Source: Sporocytophaga myxococcoides DSM 11118 (GTDB lineage: Bacteria > Bacteroidota > Bacteroidia > Cytophagales > Cytophagaceae). Taken from it: DNA of 64,000 nucleotides. Positions 14,034 through 25,656 of this stretch are shown piece by piece (the first letter of the stretch is position 1; each line of letters opens with the position of its first letter). A program made the translations under genes and the position numbers. The notes below the pieces were generated by a model. The model was not told where the DNA came from. It saw only the letters and a list, made by a program, of their open reading frames with translations, and ran no database searches. The DNA lies in contig NZ_KE384560.1 in the NCBI RefSeq assembly GCF_000426725.1, forward strand, positions 518,960-582,959. The letters run 5' to 3'.

Positions 14034-14062
14034 AAAAGCGCAGTCTTACTGACTGCGCTTTT
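14034..14062. terminator. Bidirectional terminator
   Basis: Stem AAAAGCGCAGTC (14034-14045) / GACTGCGCTTTT (14051-14062) with loop TTACT. It serves the convergent folate gene and the minus-strand exosortase locus. Confidence 0.88.
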
Positions 14063-14066
14063 AATA

Positions 14067-14312
14067 TCATTTCAATTCTTTGCTTTTCTTGTAATGAGAG
14101 TGGATTTTTTTTGCTCCCAATGCTGCCCCTGCAACCAGAAAAATTCCAATTCCTCCGTCCATCGGTATGCCACCCGTTCCACCCGGACCGCCAGGTCCTC
14201 CGGGGCCACCACCTCCACCGCCAGGTTGTGCATATGCTGTTTCTGCTGCTAACGCAAGCAATACTATAAATATAACTTTTGATACTATTTTAATTATTGA
14301 TATCATCTTCAT
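14067..14312 (-). CDS. Small PID-CTERM-like exosortase substrate (second copy)
   Basis: 81 aa. Order: signal peptide to about residue 29 (ending AYAQ), a Gly/Pro spacer (30-48), IPMDGG (49-54), a hydrophobic helix (55-66), and a basic tail (AKKIHSHYKKSKELK). The motif-helix-basic arrangement is that of exosortase sorting signals, and it resembles the 72-aa protein beside the exosortase gene. There is almost no cargo domain, so the spacer may be the functional part, for example as a surface tether. It starts 11 bp after the large T9SS protein gene. The PID-CTERM name is recalled and was not checked. Confidence 0.7.
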   Translation of the reverse strand: MKMISIIKIVSKVIFIVLLALAAETAYAQPGGGGGGPGGPGGPGGTGGIPMDGGIGIFLVAGAALGAKKIHSHYKKSKELK

Positions 14313-14323
14313 ATGTAAAAAAA

Positions 14324-16867
14324 TTAATAAAGGATAATTTTTTGAGTCACAAACTTTTGTCCGTCAAAAACGGAAACAAGGTACATCCCTGGTTTTAAAT
14401 CAGCAACGTTATAAACGATTGTTGAGTCGCCAATAGGCAGCTCTTTGTTGTCTAACACCTGATTTCCTGATACATCTGAAATACTTAAGTTTAGAGAAGT
14501 ATTTGCAGATTCAGGTAGGTTGATGAATATTTTTTTGTCAAAACAATAAAGACTTAGATTTTTACTTGGGCCACCATTTACTCCAGTAACAACATCTGTT
14601 CTTGCTTTTTCCAATGTCAGATAAAATCTTTCTGGGTTTTCATTCTGATTAATATAAACAGAGTAATTCGGACTTGTTCTTAGATTTTGTGTTTTGTCAA
14701 ATTGTTTGTCTGTAAGAAATATGTTGTATTCATCTCCAATTGAACCAAGATCTGAGACTGAAATTAGATAATTCCCTGCTGATGCTGCAGAAACGACCAA
14801 TGGAATTTCAACGGAGTTAAATTCTTCAGCAATTGAGTTAACCGCATAATCAACCCCATTCAATTGAGTGAAAATCGATGGGCAGTTGCCAGAGTTTAAC
14901 AATTTATAAGCATCAAATTCTTCATTAAATGAAGTGTCCGCATCTGCGCTCAAACGCACCAGAGTTTCGTCTGAACCATTGTTGTTTGCTACACTAATTC
15001 TCAATCCGGTTGAAGTTATTGCAGTTCTAGTTACAGCCGGATTGGACTGAGTGTTAAATGCTTTCTTATTAACAGACAATGACGGCTTTAAACCGGTTGA
15101 TGCCTTTATAAAAAAGGATTGCATTGAAGGGATAATGGGGCTACCTCCATTTAGACTTACTCCATTGATATATGTTCTATATTTCCCCGCTTTGGTATCC
15201 CATATGTAAATAGCATTGTTCACATTGGTTTTGGCCCATCCACTGTCAAGTGTCCAGTTGATAGGAGAAGGGAAGGGGTTTCCAATCAGATTCCATCCAT
15301 CGCTTTGAGGATCGCCCGAATTGGTATTGGTTACATTGAGTTTCAATGGAGAAGATGTATTGGTATAGTTACCTGATAAATCAAGTGAAGTTGGTTTGTT
15401 AAAGTAAAAAGTATAACCAGAGGTATTCACTAAAGGAGTGCTTAGGCCTGAAACCGGTACCCAGCCGCTATCAGCACTTTTATGTTTATCCAACTCATTG
15501 TAAGTATAAATCCATGAGTACCCACCTTTTTCTATAGTAGCATTGTCTGCCAATTCTGAAAGTGTAACGTTGGTGAGTGGAAAGGATACATGATGATATC
15601 CGAACTCATTTCCTGAGATATTTTTCTTTATTTTTATTTTACCGGCAAGGACACCTGAGCCAAACCTTGAGACATAACCTGTATTTAAATCAAGTAGTAC
15701 ATTGTTTGAAGTATTGAATGTCCCGGAATAAAGGACCAATGCTCCTTTAATAGTAATAGAAGTCTGGTTGGTTACACCAGCAGTATTTATCACATAAATG
15801 TCTTTAACTGTCAAAGGACTTCCAGAGATTATCTGAGCTTCCGAAGATCTAAAAGTTACAGTGTTATTGTTGAAGTTTATAGGTTTTTGGCTTGATACAC
15901 TTCCCTGAATATATACTGGTAGCCCAATGGATAGATCATTTGCGTTTTGCAAACCATAAATGTGAAATATTCCTGAGCCTGTGACATTTGAATTATTTAA
16001 AGTTTTTAAAGTCAGCTTATCAGAAGCGGAAATTCCGTTCCCGAAAGTACCATTCACTATAAGATTTCCATAAAGAGACACAGAATATTCGGTTGATGAC
16101 CCTGCATATAATTTACCCGAACTGTTGATGGTAAGGTCTTTTGCGATGATATTATTCAGCGTTTTAACAGAGTGCCCAGACTGAATAACAAAAGAGTTTT
16201 CGGAGCTATAAATGGCTGGTATTTTTGGTCCAGTCGGAGTGGTCGCCCATATGTTGGCGTTCGAATTACCTGTAGCCTGACTGTAGAAAGTGATAGGTCC
16301 TGACAGAATTGATCCTATTACTTCTATTTCATCCAAATATAATTGGCCTGCAGCATCTCCAGCTGACCATCCGAATAAACGGAAGGTAACGGTAGCGCCT
16401 TTTTCAGTGATGATCTGTTTGGTAAGTGATTTGCGTGCTTCTGTTGTTTTAACAGAATCTACAGAAGGACTGTAATCAAAGAAATTTGACCCGTCAATAC
16501 TGTATTTAAGAATCATTGCCCCTGGACCGGTAGCTGTTCTTTTCCTGGAATACTTTATTCCCGAAATGATAAGATTGGTTCCAGAACCAGCAGTTATAGA
16601 AAACTGAACATAAGTATTGCCTGGGCCTGATTTTTCGAGGCTCCAATTAGAGGATAGATACTTGTTGGCAAACTCATGACAGGTTTGACTGGTAGTCAAA
16701 TTTCCAAACGTCGCATTAGCAGGCTGAGCGGAAACTCCTAATTTTGGAGATGCACAAGTATTACCGGTGAATTGGTATAGGCCTAAAGTAGTTTGGGAAA
16801 AGACTAATGATGATTGAAAAATTATCAGGATAATAAATATTATACTGATGCGGTAATTTTTGATCAT
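14324..16867 (-). CDS. Large secreted protein with T9SS type A sorting domain
   Basis: 847 aa. Signal peptide (IIFIILIIFQSSLVFSQ). Residues ~25-190 are a jellyroll-like region (VQFSITAGSGTNLIISGIKYSRK), ~190-400 are beta-helix-like strands, and ~409-759 is a module shared with the 1309-aa protein (GWNLIGNPFPSPINW, NNAIYIWDTKAGKY, IPSMQSFFIK, ending DVVTGV). The last ~75 residues are a type A T9SS domain (SISDVSGNQV, LKPGMYLVSV, TQKIILY). It is probably exported through the outer membrane and surface-attached. It is followed by the small exosortase substrate. Confidence 0.8.
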   Translation of the reverse strand: MIKNYRISIIFIILIIFQSSLVFSQTTLGLYQFTGNTCASPKLGVSAQPANATFGNLTTSQTCHEFANKYLSSNWSLEKSGPGNTYVQFSITAGSGTNLIISGIKYSRKRTATGPGAMILKYSIDGSNFFDYSPSVDSVKTTEARKSLTKQIITEKGATVTFRLFGWSAGDAAGQLYLDEIEVIGSILSGPITFYSQATGNSNANIWATTPTGPKIPAIYSSENSFVIQSGHSVKTLNNIIAKDLTINSSGKLYAGSSTEYSVSLYGNLIVNGTFGNGISASDKLTLKTLNNSNVTGSGIFHIYGLQNANDLSIGLPVYIQGSVSSQKPINFNNNTVTFRSSEAQIISGSPLTVKDIYVINTAGVTNQTSITIKGALVLYSGTFNTSNNVLLDLNTGYVSRFGSGVLAGKIKIKKNISGNEFGYHHVSFPLTNVTLSELADNATIEKGGYSWIYTYNELDKHKSADSGWVPVSGLSTPLVNTSGYTFYFNKPTSLDLSGNYTNTSSPLKLNVTNTNSGDPQSDGWNLIGNPFPSPINWTLDSGWAKTNVNNAIYIWDTKAGKYRTYINGVSLNGGSPIIPSMQSFFIKASTGLKPSLSVNKKAFNTQSNPAVTRTAITSTGLRISVANNNGSDETLVRLSADADTSFNEEFDAYKLLNSGNCPSIFTQLNGVDYAVNSIAEEFNSVEIPLVVSAASAGNYLISVSDLGSIGDEYNIFLTDKQFDKTQNLRTSPNYSVYINQNENPERFYLTLEKARTDVVTGVNGGPSKNLSLYCFDKKIFINLPESANTSLNLSISDVSGNQVLDNKELPIGDSTIVYNVADLKPGMYLVSVFDGQKFVTQKIILY

Positions 16868-17149
16868 AATTAAAAGATTTTTTTATGTAGTCTTTAAAAA
16901 GTTTAATTTACAAAAAAGGTTGTAAGACAGAAAGTAACTTTCGTTGGAGGGGGGATATTGGGGTATAAAATAATAGAAAAATGCCACTAGAGTCTGCAGA
17001 CCGGGGAAAAGCATGCAACAAAATGAAAGAATAATCGTAGTTCAGTTTTTTTGTTTTGTATTGTTTAGTTGTTTCTAAAGAAAAAATAAAAAATCACTAA
17101 CTACAACTGGACACCGATTTTTACAATTTTAGCAAGAGACTTAAGGCCA
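16868..17149 (-). other. Spacer between exosortase gene and second large-protein gene
   Basis: 282 bp with no open frame of note and no clear terminator. It contains a G-rich stretch (GGAGGGGGGATATTGGGG near 16947-16964) and A/T runs. Because the genes on both sides read leftwards, it may hold the promoter of the 847-aa protein, but no convincing TAnnTTTG element was found. Confidence 0.4.
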
Positions 17150-17767
17150 TTAAAGGATTGCAGTTTCATTTTTTTTTGCCGAATACAGCAAATCTGAAGA
17201 ATAATTTTTAACCCACCAGTAAAAAAGTACAATAATAAAAGTATAGGCAATAGAATTGAATACATCATGGCCAGGAAACTCCATATTTGAATCTAGATGT
17301 CTTAATAGAGCTAAACCTGTAATCCGTAAGATGTTAATAATATGAATTCCAATCACACCAGCAATAAGGTATATTTTCTTGTTTCTTCCTGGATAGGCAA
17401 GCATTAATGCGATTAGGGAAAATATGATTTCAAATCCCATGCATGGAAAGGCAATTCTGACAGCGCCAGCTCCTGCAATTTTTACAGAGTTATAGGTCAA
17501 AATCGTATCAAAGCCCATAAGATTTAACAAAAATGCTGAAGGATAAACCAAAAGATTAAGGATGCCTTGGATAAGATTGAATTTTTCAAGAATTGGCAAA
17601 GAATAATCACCTTTAGGGTCTAGCAGACCTATATAGGCATAAAAAATATATTTTAAAGAATAGAAAATAAGGAGGGTAAAAAGAATAAATAAAGGAATTC
17701 TACCCCATTGAGGAACTTTCTCATATGGGGTAGAATTTATTTTACTTTCTATTTTTATAACTGTCAT
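17150..17767 (-). CDS. Exosortase/archaeosortase family transpeptidase
   Basis: 205 aa from ATG 17767; the longer frame back to 17893 is rejected because those codons lie over the upstream small gene in another frame. About five to six membrane helices. The catalytic triad of the family can be placed: Cys109 (FPCMGFEI), Arg148 (NILRITGLALL) and His167 (PGHDVFNS). It is predicted to cleave C-terminal sorting signals at the inner membrane and transfer the protein to an unknown acceptor. It overlaps the 72-aa substrate gene by 26 bp and lies 4.8 kb from an EPS locus, the usual exosortase setting. An XrtX-type assignment is possible but unchecked. Confidence 0.8.
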   Translation of the reverse strand: MTVIKIESKINSTPYEKVPQWGRIPLFILFTLLIFYSLKYIFYAYIGLLDPKGDYSLPILEKFNLIQGILNLLVYPSAFLLNLMGFDTILTYNSVKIAGAGAVRIAFPCMGFEIIFSLIALMLAYPGRNKKIYLIAGVIGIHIINILRITGLALLRHLDSNMEFPGHDVFNSIAYTFIIVLFYWWVKNYSSDLLYSAKKNETAIL

Positions 17768-17960
17768 AGATTTTCTTTCCACCAATTCCAATACCTGCAG
17801 CCAGCAAAATACTTGCACCACCGTCAAGTGGTATATCGATAGGGTCTTCATCGTCACAACCTCCAGGAGGGCAAGGAGGTTCGTCCTGAGCACTCGCTGA
17901 CAATACTATACTAGTTGTTAACAATGTGAATAGTGTCAGAAATTTTATTGTTCTTTTCAT
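17742..17960 (-). CDS. Small PID-CTERM-like exosortase substrate (first copy)
   Basis: 72 aa from ATG 17960 (an ATG at 17984 would spoil the signal peptide). Signal peptide to about residue 24 (SASAQ), a short acidic Cys-containing spacer (CPPGGC at 30-35, then DDEDPIDI), PLDGG at 44-48, a hydrophobic segment 49-60, and a basic tail KKIYDSYKNRK. The tripartite end matches exosortase signals and the 81-aa paralogue. Two cysteines in the spacer could form a disulfide or linkage. It lies 31 bp after the 1309-aa gene and overlaps the exosortase gene, which strongly links the three. Confidence 0.75.
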   Translation of the reverse strand: MKRTIKFLTLFTLLTTSIVLSASAQDEPPCPPGGCDDEDPIDIPLDGGASILLAAGIGIGGKKIYDSYKNRK

Positions 17961-17991
17961 TATATCAAAGATAAAAATTATCAATTGATTC

Positions 17992-20900
17992 TTAATTGTT
18001 TATGTAAACTTTTTCTGTGTATACTTTGTCTCCGGCTTTCACCTTTACAATGTAGACACCTGTCGATACATTTAGCTCTTTTGTATAAATACCTTGGGCA
18101 ATATTCACATTTTCTGAGCGTCCTACTTCTTGACCAATAATGTTAAGGAATACAATTGAAGCCTCTTTTTCATCGATATTTGAAAAATATACATTGACTG
18201 TTTTGCCAATCGCATTTACAGCTACTTTGCCTTCTTGTAAGTCACTTATTCCTGTAACAACATCTGACTTTCTGAATTTTATATAAAATCTGGAAGTTGT
18301 ATCTCCTTTGGTAATTGCAGCAGAGTAACCGTTTGAAGACTTTAAATCATAAGAAATGTTTAATAATTTATCTTCAAGAATGATGTCTGTTGTATCAAAA
18401 CCTGAAAATTGGTTGGCAGAGATAATATAATTGCCTGTAACAGGAGCTTCAAGTTTTAATGGAATAGTTGAATCGATATAATTCAATGGCAAGCTATTGA
18501 CTGAGTAGTTTTTTCCATTGATCAACGAGAATAAATTAGGGTTATTACCTGCATTCTTTAATTTTAATGCATCAAGGTTCCCATCAAATGAATCAGATGC
18601 ATCTTCTGTAAAGTTTAAAATTGTCTCATCAGAATATATTCCATTTTGAGCAGTTAACTTTAAAACAGGCTGATTATCTACAGAAGTTCTCCATAATGAA
18701 GGATTCTGAGTGGTAGTTCTTACATTATTAGTCATAGATAAAGTTGCAGTTCCTCCACTTCCACTTGTTGTAACAAAAAATCCCTGCATTGCCGGTACGT
18801 ATTGAGTTCCTCCGTTAACACTTGAACCATTAACAAAAGATGCATATTTGCTGGTAGTTGCATCCCAGTAATAAATGGCATTATTGATGTTGCTTTTTGT
18901 CCATCCGGCTTTTGTCCAGTCAATTGTTGAAGGGAAAGGGTTTCCAACCATTCTGAAGGCAGAAGTAGAATTAGGGAATGTTACTTCGGAAGGAACATTT
19001 CCATGGTCATAATTACCAGTGAAATCGAGTGTTGTCGGAGCTGTAAAGTATAAGGAGTATGCCTTAAACGGAGCTAGTCCGGTGTTCATATCTAATATTT
19101 GAGACCAAGCACCATCTACATATTCGAATAATCTTGTTCCATTAGGTTTATTAGGATCAGTTACAGGCGTATTGTCTGCAAAATCATTAGCTGTAGTACC
19201 GGTAAGGGGGCAGGCAAGATAATGTGTTTTTGTAGAATTCACAGATTTTGAAATCTTAATATTACCGGTAACAGTTCCTGCATCACCAGTATTATAAGCT
19301 ACACTACCCGAGTTCAGGTTCACAGAAAGATTTCCGCCAGATGCCAGAGTACCTTTGGTAAGGGCAAGTATTCCGTTTACTGTTGCTACAGAATTTAAAG
19401 AAACAGTTGAAGAAATGGTCATATTTATAGTAAGATCATTAAATATTTCCCCTCCTGCAGTTGTAATTGATTGTGGTGCAGATCCATTGAATATAACTTT
19501 GCTGCCAGTTTCTGAGAATGCTGTTGCGCCATAGCTTGTCCAGTTACCGGCTACATTAATGGTTTTAGCATTGCCAACCAATACAGCAGAACCTGCAAGT
19601 GTTAAATCATTAGTAGTTAAACTAATTCCGGCAGGAGTTTTGGTGCCGCTGTTAGATAGCCTAAGATTGTTATAATAATTGAATGTGCTGATCGTCTGGT
19701 TTGTTCCATTATAATCTATGGTACTTCCCGTTGAAATATATTCATTGGTTCCCGGAGTAAAAGTATTAGCTATTCCAATTGTTCCGTTCAACTCTCTGGC
19801 GCCGGTATTCGAGCTGCTTAGGTTGTAGTAGTTAATACCTGCAATTTTTTGTGTAGCAGTACCGGTAAAAGCAATTGTACCATTGTTATGATTGAAGGTA
19901 GCAGTGGGTGATACTGTAAAATCTCCGGTAAGAGAAGTTGTAGAACCAGCTGGTACTGTTAAAGATGCTCCGGATGCTAATGAAAGGTTGTTAAAGGTTG
20001 TATTTACTACAGAGCCTGACAAAACTGTTGAACCAGCGAATTCCACTGTACTTAGAGACGGTGTGAATGTACCATTATTAGTCCAGTTACCTTTTACTGT
20101 CAATATCTGAGATCCTCCGTTTAATTTTGAAGAAGGTGAGATTGTCAGGCTGCCGTTAACAGTAACATCTGAATTAAGTGTCAGTCCTGAAGCTCCGGTT
20201 TTTGAAACGACTAAATTATTTAAGGTTACCTGATCTGTTGGAAGTTCATAACCTGTAGGCACGGCAATAATACCTGTATAAGTAAGATTAACAAGTGTAC
20301 CAAATATTGGAGGAGCGGCAAGCGTACCTTCGTTTCTTGAAATTGTTGCATTATTAGCAAGAGTGATATTGCTAACTGTATTATCAATTTGTCCAAGGGT
20401 CAGGAATAATGTACCGCTAAGGCTAAGCGGCCCGGAAAGATTAACACCGCTTGATCTGTTAATTGTAAAATTATTTAGAGTTAAAGAAGGCAGAGAAAGG
20501 CTTGTTCCACTGGATCCGTTTGCGATAAGATTAGAAGAAGAACCGCCGTTTAATGTACCACCTCCTGAAGTAATTGCTCCACTAATTGTAAGTGTGTTTG
20601 CCCCTATTTCAAGCGTTCCTGCTGATAGGCCTAAAGAATTGGCTACAGTAACATTTCCAGTCAAAGAGATTGTCTGTCCGGACCTGTTAATATTTAAAGT
20701 TCCAAGCGTAACAGTAGGAAGATTTGCACCAACTGACGAAGTTCCAAAGGTAATTCCTGCACTATTATCTCCGATAAGTGTACCTCCGGTTATATTAAGA
20801 GCATTGTTTAAAGTCAAAATATGACCATTAAGACTAAAATTTCCTGATGAAAGTGTTAAGGCATTTCCGACAATAAAATTTGTCTGAAGTCCATAACTAC

Positions 20901-21921
20901 CTGAAATGTTAACTTTCTGATTGCTATTGGACATCGATATGCTTGAAACATCACCAGTTCCCAATAGATTTAAGGTTGCAAGCCCTGCTCCTGAACCGCT
21001 TTTTCCAATATAGGTTCCTCCGGAATAAAGAAAGTTTCCTTGAACATTGATTGAAGCATTTGCAGGACTATTGTTTGTCACCCCCGAGAATGTTCCACCA
21101 TTGATATTTAAGCTACCAGTAATGTTAATAGCAGAAGCAGGTGCTACAGGAGAGGTGGATGTTGATGCTGTTCCAACAAAACTTCCTCCAGATATATTAA
21201 AATTTCCTCCGACTTTTATTGTTGCTTGTCCCGTTCCTCCTGAATTTAAAGCAGTCAAAGATCCTCCGGAAATATTAAGATCTCCATCTATATCCAGTGT
21301 TCCTGAGCCAGAACCAGCATTAACTACTCTAAATATTGTAGATTGAAGAAAGACATTCTGATAAACTTTTATTGTTTTGGTTGTTGTGTTTGTAATTAGG
21401 TTCAGTGTTCTGCTGCCAGCTAAATATAGGTCTCCATTTACTGTAAATCCGGCAGGAATAGTAGATGCTGTTCCTGAACCCTCTATATAAAGTGTAGGGT
21501 AACTCAGATTTCTGATTTGAAAATTAGCTCCGGCAATATGAACTTCACTGAATGGATCTAAAGTGCCGAATTTAAGAGATGGATATGTAGTTGATAACGT
21601 ATATACAGCTCCACTCTGCATATCAAGAGTTATGTCATGATCAAATCCATTGGCATCAAAGGAGGAGCCGGATTCAATAACAACCTTACCCAATACAGTC
21701 CATTTCGCGGATGCAAACATTGCATCTCCATTAGTTATGATAAATTCATCAGAGGTACTTGTAAAATCTGCAGGGTTGTTGCCATTGCCATCATCCCAGT
21801 TAGATAAATTTAAAACATCGGGATCTTCAGTAATGGCAGCTTGCGAATAATACACCGTTGCCCATCCGGGACTGGCATATAGGAGGACTGATATTACTAT
21901 TAGAGTAAAAATTTTTTTCAT
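17992..21921 (-). CDS. Giant beta-solenoid surface protein with T9SS type A sorting domain
   Basis: 1309 aa. Signal peptide to about residue 21 (LLYASPGWA). Residues ~60-880 are Ser/Thr/Gly/Asn-rich strands built on repeats such as LNISGGSL, FNISGGSF, LNINGGTF and FLYSGGTY (around 210-310), as expected for a parallel beta-helix adhesin. Residues ~885-1220 match the 847-aa protein's module (VGNPFPSTIDW, NNAIYYWDATTSKY, VPAMQGFFV, DVVTGI). The final ~80 residues are a T9SS type A domain (FLNIIGQEVG, STGVYIVKVKAG, KVYINN). It is the first gene of the exosortase operon. Confidence 0.82.
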   Translation of the reverse strand: MKKIFTLIVISVLLYASPGWATVYYSQAAITEDPDVLNLSNWDDGNGNNPADFTSTSDEFIITNGDAMFASAKWTVLGKVVIESGSSFDANGFDHDITLDMQSGAVYTLSTTYPSLKFGTLDPFSEVHIAGANFQIRNLSYPTLYIEGSGTASTIPAGFTVNGDLYLAGSRTLNLITNTTTKTIKVYQNVFLQSTIFRVVNAGSGSGTLDIDGDLNISGGSLTALNSGGTGQATIKVGGNFNISGGSFVGTASTSTSPVAPASAINITGSLNINGGTFSGVTNNSPANASINVQGNFLYSGGTYIGKSGSGAGLATLNLLGTGDVSSISMSNSNQKVNISGSYGLQTNFIVGNALTLSSGNFSLNGHILTLNNALNITGGTLIGDNSAGITFGTSSVGANLPTVTLGTLNINRSGQTISLTGNVTVANSLGLSAGTLEIGANTLTISGAITSGGGTLNGGSSSNLIANGSSGTSLSLPSLTLNNFTINRSSGVNLSGPLSLSGTLFLTLGQIDNTVSNITLANNATISRNEGTLAAPPIFGTLVNLTYTGIIAVPTGYELPTDQVTLNNLVVSKTGASGLTLNSDVTVNGSLTISPSSKLNGGSQILTVKGNWTNNGTFTPSLSTVEFAGSTVLSGSVVNTTFNNLSLASGASLTVPAGSTTSLTGDFTVSPTATFNHNNGTIAFTGTATQKIAGINYYNLSSSNTGARELNGTIGIANTFTPGTNEYISTGSTIDYNGTNQTISTFNYYNNLRLSNSGTKTPAGISLTTNDLTLAGSAVLVGNAKTINVAGNWTSYGATAFSETGSKVIFNGSAPQSITTAGGEIFNDLTINMTISSTVSLNSVATVNGILALTKGTLASGGNLSVNLNSGSVAYNTGDAGTVTGNIKISKSVNSTKTHYLACPLTGTTANDFADNTPVTDPNKPNGTRLFEYVDGAWSQILDMNTGLAPFKAYSLYFTAPTTLDFTGNYDHGNVPSEVTFPNSTSAFRMVGNPFPSTIDWTKAGWTKSNINNAIYYWDATTSKYASFVNGSSVNGGTQYVPAMQGFFVTTSGSGGTATLSMTNNVRTTTQNPSLWRTSVDNQPVLKLTAQNGIYSDETILNFTEDASDSFDGNLDALKLKNAGNNPNLFSLINGKNYSVNSLPLNYIDSTIPLKLEAPVTGNYIISANQFSGFDTTDIILEDKLLNISYDLKSSNGYSAAITKGDTTSRFYIKFRKSDVVTGISDLQEGKVAVNAIGKTVNVYFSNIDEKEASIVFLNIIGQEVGRSENVNIAQGIYTKELNVSTGVYIVKVKAGDKVYTEKVYINN

Positions 21922-22526
21922 AATTATGATTTGTTAGCTATACAAATTAACAAGTTAAATTTTAATTATTTGTAAACAGAAATAGGTGATTATTAAGATT
22001 TGTTTACACCTTACTTGGTTTTCAGATGATTAAAGCACTAGGAAATATACGAATAGTTTTATAAATCTGCTAACTTGATTAGATCAAAGTGAATATCAAA
22101 TCGATGATTTGGTGTAATTGTTTTTAATTTAAATTTATATTAGAATTTGAATTTAAGACCTCATTTTAGGGATGAGTTGAAATAATTTACACTCTTGTTT
22201 TCGTTTTATTATTTATTTAAGTGAAAAAGCTAAAATGGATTGAATTCTAGTAACGCTATTTTTGTTTGAAGAACGATAATATTATATTAAATAATATAAA
22301 AAAAATCCAATATTTTTAATTTTAATAACTTAATAATTAAGAATAAAATGAAGTAGATTTGATTTCGTTATATTTCTAGGACAATAAGTATATGTCAATA
22401 AATGTTTTTATATATATTTGTTCCCATCCAAAATAGTTTTCAAAGAGAAACCCAATTAACTTTAAAATCGTATTAAAACATTTTTAAAATTAAATCTGGG
22501 ATTAGCCCAAAGAAGAATTGTACAAA
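21922..22526. other. Divergent intergenic region between exosortase operon and EPS locus
   Basis: 605 bp, very AT-rich, no coding frame of note. It must hold the divergent promoters of the exosortase operon (minus) and of the Wza gene (plus). The only good element seen is TATATTTG at 22413-22420. No repeat or RNA gene was recognised. Confidence 0.5.
22413..22420 (+). promoter_or_regulatory. Putative -7 element of the EPS operon promoter
   Basis: TATATTTG fits TAnnTTTG exactly and lies 107 bp before the wza-like start. No clear TTTG lies 17-23 bases upstream, so the match is partial. Confidence 0.35.
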
Positions 22527-23297
22527 ATGAATAAAAAAAATTATTTAAGACTACTGTTTCTATTTTTATCAGGTTGTTCAATTTTTTCCTGTATTCCACA
22601 AAAAAAGATTGTTTACTTACAAGGAAAGCAAAATGACTCGGTTTTCATAGCACAGGAACAATTTGTTTATAAAATCCAACCACGCGACCTTTTGAATATA
22701 AGTATTGTAAGTCCGGATCCACGGGTTACTTCTTTTTATAATATTCAGCAAACCCCTAGTCAGGCTATAAATCCGGGGAGTATGTACCTAAATGGATACG
22801 TTGTGAACGATTCAGGCTCGGTGACTATTCCGGTTATAGGGAAAGTGATGGTAAAAAATCAGACCATATCAGAAGTTCAAACCATTATTGAAAGAATTGT
22901 AAGAGAGCAAGTTTCGGATGCAACTGTCGTTGTAAAACTGTTAAGCTATAGAGTAACTGTATTGGGAGAAGTTAGAACTCCTGGAATACATTACATGTAT
23001 AATGAGCGATTTACTTTACTAGAGGCATTAGGGATGGCTGGTGATCTGTCAGAATATGGAAACAGAAAGAATATCAAGCTGATGCGACCTAAAGAAGGCG
23101 GAATGGAAATCATACACTTAGACCTTACGGATAAAAACCTCCTTAAATCACCATTCTTTTATCTGAAGCCTAATGATGTGATTTACGTAGCTCCGATGAA
23201 GGCAAAAATTGACAGGAATAACCTGACACTGGTGACTGTATTGTTTGCTGGAATTTCTGCATTGGTTCTGGTTATTAATTTTATAAAGACAAACTAA
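22527..23297 (+). CDS. Polysaccharide export lipoprotein (Wza/OPX family)
   Basis: 256 aa from ATG 22527 (a TTG at 22518 is in frame but less likely). Lipoprotein signal with cysteine at 17 or 22 (LSGCSIFSC). Poly_export domain starts at YKIQPRDLLNISI, followed by an SLBB-type segment (YRVTVLGEVRTPGIHYMY, LLEALGMAGDLSEYG). A C-terminal hydrophobic helix (VTVLFAGISALVLVINFI) may span a membrane. It forms the export channel with the Wzc-like protein encoded one base downstream. Confidence 0.92.
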   Translation: MNKKNYLRLLFLFLSGCSIFSCIPQKKIVYLQGKQNDSVFIAQEQFVYKIQPRDLLNISIVSPDPRVTSFYNIQQTPSQAINPGSMYLNGYVVNDSGSVTIPVIGKVMVKNQTISEVQTIIERIVREQVSDATVVVKLLSYRVTVLGEVRTPGIHYMYNERFTLLEALGMAGDLSEYGNRKNIKLMRPKEGGMEIIHLDLTDKNLLKSPFFYLKPNDVIYVAPMKAKIDRNNLTLVTVLFAGISALVLVINFIKTN

Positions 23298-23298
23298 A

Positions 23299-25656
23299 GT
23301 GAAAAAGAGAGAAGATGAATCTATTGACATTAAAGCGCTTTTAAGTAAGGCTTACCAATATTGGCCTTTATTTGCTTTAAGTCTTTTCCTTTCACTTGGG
23401 TATGCCTATTTATATATTAGATATTATACTGAACCTCACTACAATGTAGTTTCTACTATATTAATTAAACCCAATGAGAAAATTTCAGGATTTCAGGAAA
23501 TAGACTTGTTCCGCCAGGATAAAAAGAAAGCCAACGAAATGGCTATACTCAAGTCTTATGAAATAGCTTATAAAACTCTACTGCAGCTGGAATTTAGCGT
23601 TTCATATTTTCATAAGGGACAGGTCAGAGATGTAGAGTTGTATCAATCCACTCCATTTAAAGTGATTATTGATACAAGTTTTAAAAAACAGGCCTATAAT
23701 GTTCCTGTTTTTATAAATATTATTTCTTCTAATGACTTTAAACTTGCTATAGGAAATGCGGGAGAGCTAAATCAAACGTTCTCCTTTGGAGAGCCTGTGA
23801 AGCTTGAGAATTTATCCTTTACTGTGGTGAAGCTTGATGAAAATCTTCAGATTGCTGATCATTATTATTTTAAGCTTCATGATCCTGCCAATCTTGCAAT
23901 ACTTTACAGGAATAAATTACAAGTAACAAATTCAGGAGGAAAGGAATCCAGTATTCTAGAATTATCGACAGTTGGTAATAATATCCAGCGTGAATGCGAT
24001 TATTTGAATAAGCTGACGGAAGTGTATATCCAAAATGGTCTGGAAGAAAAAAATCAGATTGCAAGTAATACTATTAATTTTATAGATAGTCAGCTTGCTT
24101 CCATAGCTGCTTCTTTGAATAATGCAGAAACGGAGTTGGAAAGTTTCAGAAGAAACAACAAGGTGATGGATATTTCTTCAGCTGCAACTTCTGTTTTTGC
24201 TAAACTGGATGAGCTTGAATCGGAAAAGGCCGTATTGTTGGTCAAGGATAAATACTATCATTATGTTCTTGATTATGTAAGCAATAATAAGGATTTGAGT
24301 GGAGTGGTAGCTCCTTCCACGATGGGGATAGATGATCCATTGTTAAATAGCCTAACATTAAATCTTGTTGAATTGAACAGAGAGAAGTCATCTTTAGGAA
24401 GGAATACAACAGGAAATAACCCTTTTTTAAACTCTCTTGAAATCAAGATTAAAAACTCTAAAGAAGCGTTATTAGAAAATGTTAAAAATATAATCAATGG
24501 ATCTAGGATATCGATAGAAGATATTGAAAAGAGAATAGTAAAACTCGAGAAAGAAGTGAGCAACCTTCCAAGGAATGAGCGGGATTTAGTAGATATTCAA
24601 AGAAGATTTAACCTCAATGATCATTTATACAATTACCTTCTAGAAAAGAAGGCGGAATCAGGAATAGCAAAAGCCTCAAATATCCCTGACAACAGAATTG
24701 TTGAACGAGCAAGAAGTTTTAACGCTTTTCAGGTTGGTCCTAAAACAAATATGATTTATTCCAATGCCATACTCGTTGGTTTATCTATCCCTCTGGGATT
24801 TTTGTTTCTTAGAAGTTATTTTAACAATAAAATTCAATCGAAGAAAAGTATTGAAGAACGTACAGATATTCCGGTGATTGGAATCGTAGGACATAATGAT
24901 AATTTCTCAAACCTGGCTGTATTAAAAAATCCTAAATCAGGGATTGCAGAGTCCTTTAGGTCAATAAGGATTAATCTTCAATACCTTGCACCGGATAAAG
25001 AAAAGAAGATAATATGTATTACTTCAAGTATAAGTGGTGAGGGGAAAACATTTACATCTATTAATCTAGCATCCATAGTCGCAATGTCAGGAAAGAAAAC
25101 GATTTTGATCGGAGCTGATTTAAGGAAACCTAAAATTTTTGAAGACTTTGGGTTGGATAATTCAAGCGGACTTAGCACCTATCTTGCGGGTAAGCATAAA
25201 TTGGAACAGATCGTATTTAAGACGCAGGTGGAACATCTTGATATTATTTCTGCAGGACCAGTGCCTCCTAACCCGGGGGAGTTAATTCTATCAAGTAGAT
25301 TAAATGTATTGATGGATGAACTGAAGTTGCGATATGATTATATAATTATTGATACTCCTCCAATAGGACTGGTTTCTGATTGTTTTATCCTGATGAAGTA
25401 TTCTGATATCAATTTATATATCGTAAGACATAAGTATACAGAAATAAAATTACTGGATAAGGTTAATGGCTTCGTTAATGATGGTAAAATTAGTAACATG
25501 AGTATTATCATTAATGATCTTTATAATAACGATAGTAAGTATGGCTATGGGTACGGTTATTATGATAGTTTTGGATATTATGAAGAAAAAACTAAAAGTG
25601 AAGGTTTCCTGAATAGAATATATAAAAAAATAATTAAGGAAAATAATGCCAGTTGA
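23299..25656 (+). CDS. Wzc-like polysaccharide co-polymerase and tyrosine autokinase
   Basis: 785 aa, GTG start one base after the wza-like stop. N-terminal membrane helix (~20-40) and Wzz domain, coiled coil (~255-460), second helix (~490-510), then a BY-kinase domain: Walker A SISGEGKT (~577-584), Walker A' ILIGADLRKP, Walker B IIIDTPP. The tail has a tyrosine cluster (YGYGYGYYDSFGYYEE), the autophosphorylation site of this family. It controls chain length and export of the polysaccharide made by the downstream genes. Confidence 0.93.
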   Translation: MKKREDESIDIKALLSKAYQYWPLFALSLFLSLGYAYLYIRYYTEPHYNVVSTILIKPNEKISGFQEIDLFRQDKKKANEMAILKSYEIAYKTLLQLEFSVSYFHKGQVRDVELYQSTPFKVIIDTSFKKQAYNVPVFINIISSNDFKLAIGNAGELNQTFSFGEPVKLENLSFTVVKLDENLQIADHYYFKLHDPANLAILYRNKLQVTNSGGKESSILELSTVGNNIQRECDYLNKLTEVYIQNGLEEKNQIASNTINFIDSQLASIAASLNNAETELESFRRNNKVMDISSAATSVFAKLDELESEKAVLLVKDKYYHYVLDYVSNNKDLSGVVAPSTMGIDDPLLNSLTLNLVELNREKSSLGRNTTGNNPFLNSLEIKIKNSKEALLENVKNIINGSRISIEDIEKRIVKLEKEVSNLPRNERDLVDIQRRFNLNDHLYNYLLEKKAESGIAKASNIPDNRIVERARSFNAFQVGPKTNMIYSNAILVGLSIPLGFLFLRSYFNNKIQSKKSIEERTDIPVIGIVGHNDNFSNLAVLKNPKSGIAESFRSIRINLQYLAPDKEKKIICITSSISGEGKTFTSINLASIVAMSGKKTILIGADLRKPKIFEDFGLDNSSGLSTYLAGKHKLEQIVFKTQVEHLDIISAGPVPPNPGELILSSRLNVLMDELKLRYDYIIIDTPPIGLVSDCFILMKYSDINLYIVRHKYTEIKLLDKVNGFVNDGKISNMSIIINDLYNNDSKYGYGYGYYDSFGYYEEKTKSEGFLNRIYKKIIKENNAS

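Follow-up and report, generated by a model that had tools for sequence, protein, structure and literature searches.

A recurrent pairing of genes for T9SS-sorted proteins and PID-CTERM micro-proteins in Bacteroidota that carry exosortases

The window analysed here is a 64,000-nucleotide stretch of the genome of Sporocytophaga myxococcoides DSM 11118 (contig NZ_KE384560.1, positions 518,960 to 582,959), in which an exosortase gene sits among two gene pairs of the same design, each a gene for a large secreted protein with a type IX secretion system (T9SS) sorting domain followed by a gene for a tiny protein with an exosortase-type signal. Sequence comparisons across the phylum Bacteroidota show that this order, in which a gene for a T9SS type A protein with a shared module precedes a micro-gene, is recurrent and co-occurs with exosortases. 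An initial annotation had proposed that the exosortase attaches or releases the tiny protein, which would serve the T9SS protein as anchor or partner. That proposal is half supported: the pairing is more general than first seen, the substrate role is very likely and the anchor role is putative.

The locus lies on the minus strand in the gene order T9SS protein 1, tiny protein 1, exosortase, T9SS protein 2 and tiny protein 2. Its features are as follows (window positions; CTD, C-terminal sorting domain; dN/dS, ratio of nonsynonymous to synonymous substitution rates):

17992..21921, minus strand: T9SS-sorted secreted protein 1, 1309 residues (open reading frame; TIGR04183 26.0 bits, cut-off 23)
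18001..18195, minus strand: T9SS type A CTD, protein 1 residues 1243-1307 (TIGR04183; PF18962 18.4 bits, under its cut-off of 27)
18220..19236, minus strand: pre-CTD module of protein 1 (GNPFPSTIDW...), common to partners elsewhere (our module profile)
17742..17960, minus strand: tiny PID-CTERM protein 1, 72 residues (NF046080 34.4 bits, cut-off 26; dN/dS 0.06-0.21)
17763..17831, minus strand: PID-CTERM sorting signal of tiny protein 1 (PLDGG, helix, basic tail; NCBIfam match)
17150..17767, minus strand: exosortase, 205 residues from the chosen ATG at 17767 (TIGR04178 42 bits, cut-off 23; PF09721 30.5 bits, cut-off 25.7)
14324..16867, minus strand: T9SS-sorted secreted protein 2, 847 residues (open reading frame; TIGR04183 29.0 bits, cut-off 23; PF18962 32.6 bits, cut-off 27)
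14333..14530, minus strand: T9SS type A CTD, protein 2 residues 780-845 (TIGR04183 and PF18962)
14576..15607, minus strand: pre-CTD module of protein 2 (GNPFPSPINW...; our module profile)
14067..14312, minus strand: tiny PID-CTERM protein 2, 81 residues (NF046080 26.7 bits, cut-off 26; dN/dS 0.10-0.22)
14103..14165, minus strand: PID-CTERM sorting signal of tiny protein 2 (PMDGG, helix, basic tail; NCBIfam match)

Both large proteins thus pass the TIGR04183 cut-off for the T9SS type A sorting family, and the 847-residue protein alone passes that of PF18962. The distance from T9SS stop to tiny-gene start is 31 bp in the first module and 11 bp in the second, the exosortase gene and tiny gene 1 have 26 bp in common, and 282 bp separate the exosortase from T9SS protein 2. 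Read by eye, both tiny translations consist of signal peptide, motif, helix and basic tail. These open reading frames, gaps and domain scores agree with the initial annotation, which had described two modules of a T9SS protein and, after 31 or 11 bp, a protein of 72-81 residues built from signal peptide, spacer, P-[LM]-D-G-G, helix and basic tail; both tiny proteins pass the PID_CTERM cut-off, and the motif is an already curated NCBIfam domain (PID-CTERM). The exosortase described there, with Cys109, Arg148 and His167, was borne out as well, its residues being confirmed and the superfamily cut-offs passed, and all three residues are invariant in 17 aligned linked exosortases. Where the annotation spoke of giant T9SS proteins, the T9SS sorting holds but the size word is too generous for 847 residues.

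Pairwise dN/dS of the two tiny genes is 0.06-0.22 across four genomes of the genus; both look to be under purifying selection, and spurious micro-ORFs (open reading frames) were rejected on this ground. The pairing was checked in relatives with the exosortase, and both pairs are kept in each of three other genomes of the genus. The window's genome of 6.34 Mb contains two PID_CTERM matches over the cut-off, both at the locus (a third, with an E-value of 2.6, is under it). Against these two stand at least 150 T9SS domains for sorting, and only a small part of the T9SS genes is therefore marked by a micro-gene. Since only two over-cut-off matches occur in 6.34 Mb and the pairing recurs across the phylum, a chance origin in the window is very unlikely. 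No PEP-CTERM family was among the NCBIfam and Pfam matches of the window-locus proteins at E-values up to 1.

The comparative sample comprised 395 genomes from the phylum plus 19 of the family, with PID_CTERM counted at E-values up to 0.001. Gene calls were simple ORF calls, and the genomes are related, kinship being uncorrected except in the family counts. PID_CTERM is present in 62 of the 395 phylum genomes and in 14 of the 19 family genomes. Pairing was scored at 157 PID places with context among 170 listed, 13 without context being left out; a PID gene counted as paired when a T9SS gene ended at most 1200 bp upstream on the same strand, and genes of at least 100 residues from the same loci served for comparison. 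By this measure a T9SS gene lies upstream of 115 of the 157 listed PID genes, versus the domain's presence in 52 of 1468 other genes. The pairs are spread over 50 of the 66 genomes and 11 of the 13 families. The gene-for-gene pairing that had been noticed at the window locus is therefore real and widespread. Stop-to-first-ATG distances have a median of 71 bp, and 98 pairs fall at 0-120 bp. On the downstream side, 23 of 153 PID genes are followed by a T9SS gene, in part through tandem units; these counts led us to reject chance pairing. In seven further cases a T9SS gene stands directly downstream of the PID gene.

Genes lying upstream of PID genes served as the training set for our CTD and module profiles, and the partner calls were repeated by other means. 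Public models, run on the 132 distinct sequences from 134 upstream-neighbour rows, gave a T9SS match in 112 of the 132 distinct same-strand neighbours at E-values up to 0.01, and profiles built from the other clade agree for 102 of 113 partners. A rule-based finder blind to PID returned micro-ORFs after 70 of 113 PID partners. For T9SS genes outside this set the figure was 1 of 50, and for the remaining genes 11 of 1385; 10 of these last 11 are PID genes themselves. At five of the 157 places less than 520 bp of upstream sequence is available (without them, 115 of 152 are paired), and one place counted as unpaired (G139:C2) has an upstream module match missed by the gene caller. Some loci hold repeated units: two near-identical triplets of T9SS gene, PID gene and exosortase stand side by side in L063, and G397 has three such triplets, two of them near-identical neighbours. 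The PID-CTERM signal in L133 (G166:C1:2167132-2167203) ends a 965-residue multi-helix protein, by far the longest of the 157 PID proteins.

Exosortases accompany PID_CTERM throughout the sample. An exosortase match is found in all 62 PID-positive genomes, as against 81 of 333 PID-negative ones (Fisher p about 1e-32, uncorrected for kinship), and XrtX passes its cut-off in 43 of 62 PID-positive genomes versus 2 of 80 PID-negative genomes with an exosortase (80 of the 81, G389 being left out). Immediately downstream of 16 PID genes comes an exosortase gene, and 12 of these PID genes themselves lie behind a T9SS gene. On the strength of this co-occurrence, the 16 adjacent genes and the XrtX distribution, it is very probable that the tiny proteins serve as substrates of an exosortase.

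The exosortase at the window locus falls under both type cut-offs (XrtY, NF046083, 100.2 versus 160 bits; XrtX, NF046081, 67.2 versus 170 bits). Elsewhere the genome encodes an XrtO (L006, G000:C7:154533-154811; 345.8 bits, cut-off 250) and an XrtX-like exosortase (L004, G000:C2:648353-648610; 149.6 bits, under the cut-off of 170). With two further exosortases in the genome, the locus neighbour need not be the enzyme that acts on the tiny proteins. Upstream of the XrtX-like exosortase, L004:911-1126 is a short ORF of a repeated 'ELKARIFDLRARRL'-like unit. In another, PID-positive genome, an exosortase match (G309:C1:1848244-1848504) has one in-frame TAG.

The T9SS partners share more than their sorting domain. 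Single linkage of their non-CTD parts places 111 of 113 in one cluster. They have in common a module of about 350 residues that stands directly before the sorting domain and carries the motifs GNP[FY]..IDW, YVWD and QGFF. A partner-trained profile finds the module in 111 of 113 partners versus 27 of 1468 other genes, 23 of these 27 being T9SS genes too. Among 42 module sequences, taken from 47 prepared module rows, one at most was matched by any given Pfam or NCBIfam family. In the PDB, the module profile matched only chain 8gl6_D, named RemA there (E-value 3.6e-31), and the RemA/RemZ proteins of Flavobacterium johnsoniae accordingly count among the closest known systems; a single window module used alone gave no PDB match. 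The 8gl6 entry apparently belongs to a trapped-translocon study, the available portion of which describes only the CTD of the substrate RemZ as well resolved (PMC10994853).

At E-values up to 1e-10, with about five candidates per genome scored, the module occurs in 137 of 395 genomes, namely 97 of 143 with an exosortase match and 40 of 252 others, and it is found in 59 of the 62 PID-positive genomes. The idea of a PID-specific domain was rejected on these counts. The 40 genomes without an exosortase match indicate that the module works without an exosortase system and is broader than the pairing.

Module loci also revealed other versions of the micro-gene. We inspected 80 such loci from named genomes (set A6 holds 63 of them, 16 being left out by length or name, plus L205), and by our own reading twelve have a micro-gene of the same build directly after the T9SS gene. 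The motif is PIDGG-like in Sporocytophaga (L197, L198), Adhaeribacter (L221), Hymenobacter (L246, L269) and Cytophaga (L238), PIGGG or PIGSG in L248, L256 and L263, and PITG in L264 and L267 (Cyclobacteriaceae) and L274 (Cytophagales); L208, L242 and L255 have a PID-like match elsewhere, on the opposite strand. At six loci a PITG or PISG micro-gene overlaps the T9SS stop by 4 bp. Two loci share a run (L264:445-9830, L267:449-9824) of exosortase, DegT-type aminotransferase, T9SS gene, PITG micro-gene with 4-bp overlap and Polysacc_synt_2 gene. In this run XrtF passes its cut-off in L264 and the L267 exosortase is identified by our own profile only, while profile searches support the nucleotide-sugar aminotransferase in L267 and Polysacc_synt_2 in L264. 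L274:7722-9821 covers only the later part of a run of this type. No NCBIfam family matched the PITG proteins of L264 and L267. A search of 32 genomes for PITG/PISG-type micro-genes gave two weak matches and three clear ones (G049, G146, G186); these three, PID-negative with an exosortase and of the window's order, have PITG or PISG micro-genes with a 4-bp overlap behind a T9SS-module gene.

Flavobacteriaceae, a label that rests on a Flavobacterium-type exosortase and genus grouping, provide further candidates. A mixed tail profile matched in 22 of 35 genomes at E-values up to 0.5, many matches being weak or plainly other proteins. Six loci (L281, L283, L285, L286, L288, L297) encode signal peptide, Pro-rich spacer, PID motif, helix and basic tail, with no T9SS gene directly upstream; in L281, L283, L286 and L297 a gene of one and the same type precedes the micro-gene at a distance of 475-720 bp. 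A module gene stands directly upstream in L277, L280 and L289, of which L277 is a PID gene already counted and L289 has a partner that did not match our CTD profile. By their build, the Flavobacterium-group micro-proteins are leads as candidate XrtF substrates. In F. johnsoniae one colonisation screen yielded XrtF along with T9SS genes, and the accessible text of that study leaves exosortase substrates to future work and expects them to be unlike PEP-CTERM (PMC10936215).

Comparison with known systems places the window locus close to, and apart from, several of them. It resembles the PID-CTERM system (NF046080) with exosortases X and Y (NF046081, NF046083) in that both tiny proteins pass the cut-off and an exosortase adjoins; the NCBIfam description covers the domain only and does not include the T9SS partner or the shared module, and the adjacent exosortase is, as noted, under both type cut-offs. 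With PEP-CTERM/exosortase (EpsH) systems it shares the tripartite C-terminal signal, the exosortase and a neighbouring polysaccharide locus. Most known substrates of PEP-CTERM systems are full-sized proteins bearing their own signal; at the window locus the signal belongs to a micro-protein, and the protein next to it takes a different sorting route. T9SS type B substrates, according to one study, are often genetically linked to PorP/SprF-like shuttle proteins (PMC12618676), an arrangement similar in setting a secreted-protein gene beside the gene of a dedicated surface partner. Our partners are instead type A, and the companion is an exosortase-type substrate. The open-licence literature yielded no paper on 'PID-CTERM', and its exosortase and T9SS papers, in the portions available, no description of the T9SS/PID-CTERM pairing; either may be in print elsewhere.

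What would the micro-protein become? We modelled the processed segment for 149 of the 157 micro-proteins with simple signal-peptide rules that favour Gln. From predicted signal-peptide end to motif the median is 13 residues (at most 30 in 122 of the 149), rich in Pro, Gly, Ala and Gln. With so few residues before the motif a folded anchor domain is unlikely, and a short peptide conjugate would be the natural product of processing.

Two further features flank the locus:

22518..25656, plus strand: polysaccharide export protein and Wzc-like tyrosine kinase, start of a divergent polysaccharide locus (profile search)
14034..14062, minus strand: terminator-like hairpin with a 12-bp stem, 3' of the second module (pattern match alone)

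The divergent locus from 22518, in which ten genes were profiled, also includes glycosyltransferases. Polysaccharide genes beside the window locus, and again in the L264 run with XrtF, support the explanation that we tentatively favour, a two-signal surface cassette in which an exosortase-made peptide conjugate would help to hold the T9SS partner. The pairing and exosortase counts, the module common to the partners and the constant gene order across motif versions speak for it too, and the type B shuttle linkage and the F. johnsoniae screen are precedents. Sec would in all likelihood bring the micro-protein into the inner membrane, with signal peptidase removing the N-terminus, and an exosortase, either the adjacent XrtY-like or the genome's XrtX-like enzyme, would then cut near the motif. 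The available text of one source holds that exosortases may act as transpeptidases (PMC11980579). The exosortase would probably pass the peptide's new C-terminus on to a lipid or amino-sugar carrier with ties to the polysaccharide pathway next door, and a short peptide conjugate displayed on the cell surface would result. In the weakest step, this conjugate would keep the T9SS protein close to the surface or matrix, probably via the pre-CTD module; such a tie would explain why the two genes remain coupled one to one. The fuller claim, that the conjugate from a gene-paired micro-protein is joined, covalently or not, to its T9SS partner and that a single surface structure thereby arises from the work of two sorting enzymes, is doubtful.

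Several observations weigh against the surface cassette. The pair is absent in 16 of 66 genomes. The gene in front of the micro-gene appears, by eye, to have a Wzc-like tail in G399-G402, and in G408 and one of two G409 places it is apparently an rmlD-type sugar gene (presumably the two rmlD matches). An exosortase lies within the fetched stretch for only 22 of 157 PID genes, and the 40 module-bearing genomes without an exosortase match count here as well. In the named set the association is weak: an exosortase search of 50 loci in 49 module-bearing genomes found one in 11 of 12 genomes with a micro-gene versus 25 of 37 others. The predicted processed peptide is tiny and has no obvious binding site. 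Within the f25 group, tails are 81% alike within genomes versus 73% between them, and they remain 79% alike within a genome where partner C-termini are less than 35% identical (38 pairs; 72% between genomes), so one-to-one matching is not evident. Similarity of tiny proteins and of partners does correlate in f25 (Spearman within genomes 0.41 for tails and 0.44 for signal plus spacer; between genomes 0.13 and 0.34). Strict partner-specific matching was set aside on the likeness of tails across dissimilar partners, though this correlation exists.

Four other explanations account for parts of these data. The micro-protein could be a helper in the inner membrane or periplasm, such as an escort or assembly factor, that serves the production or export of the T9SS partner and that exosortase cleavage inactivates or recycles. 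The partner-then-micro-gene order at 115 of 157 places, the close gaps or 4-bp overlaps and the copying of whole units side by side, as in the two L063 triplets, are what a helper would predict; but micro-proteins are so alike within a genome that one per genome might suffice, and the exosortase gene behind the pair in 12 places better fits maturation. We consider such a helper unlikely. Also unlikely, and ranked after it, is a peptide conjugate that is itself a matrix component or signal, sharing a transcript with the T9SS protein through a common extracellular programme and making no contact with it. Short Pro/Gly/Ala/Gln-rich peptides, fairly uniform within a genome, and the 42 of 157 PID genes without an upstream T9SS gene would suit this role, yet neighbouring copies hold one micro-gene per partner, and one module in 111 of 113 partners is more specific than co-expression needs.

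Gene-order inertia, an old neighbour pair without shared function kept through inheritance and duplication, is improbable: 70 of the 115 pairs do fall in f25, and T9SS genes also follow PID genes, partly in tandem units, but pairs span 11 of 13 families and the order stays constant while gaps, motifs and sequences vary widely. An N-terminal Gln tends to cyclise and block the amine, and its prediction as first residue in 145 of the 149 modelled micro-proteins, under a rule that favoured it, speaks against a two-sortase relay in which PorU joins the partner C-terminus to the peptide conjugate as one covalent chain, a reading that we consider very improbable. The L264/L267 run, where an aminotransferase and a Polysacc_synt_2 gene accompany the exosortase, the T9SS gene and the micro-gene, is in keeping with a relay, as is the C-terminal glycosylation of Porphyromonas and Tannerella T9SS cargo via the Wbp/Vim pathway, reported in a source that also offers the speculation of an amino-acid-modified sugar being used by exosortase systems (PMC7468200).

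These observations suggest that T9SS and exosortases, usually treated apart, cooperate in surface display. The pairing offers concrete candidates for exosortase substrates and their partner proteins in tractable species, and it draws attention to a module without a name that many T9SS proteins contain. If the conjugate is indeed joined to its T9SS partner, the PITG, PISG, PING and PID-x micro-proteins would include substrates of XrtF, left open by the F. johnsoniae study, and Bacteroidota would possess an additional means of attaching T9SS proteins to the cell.

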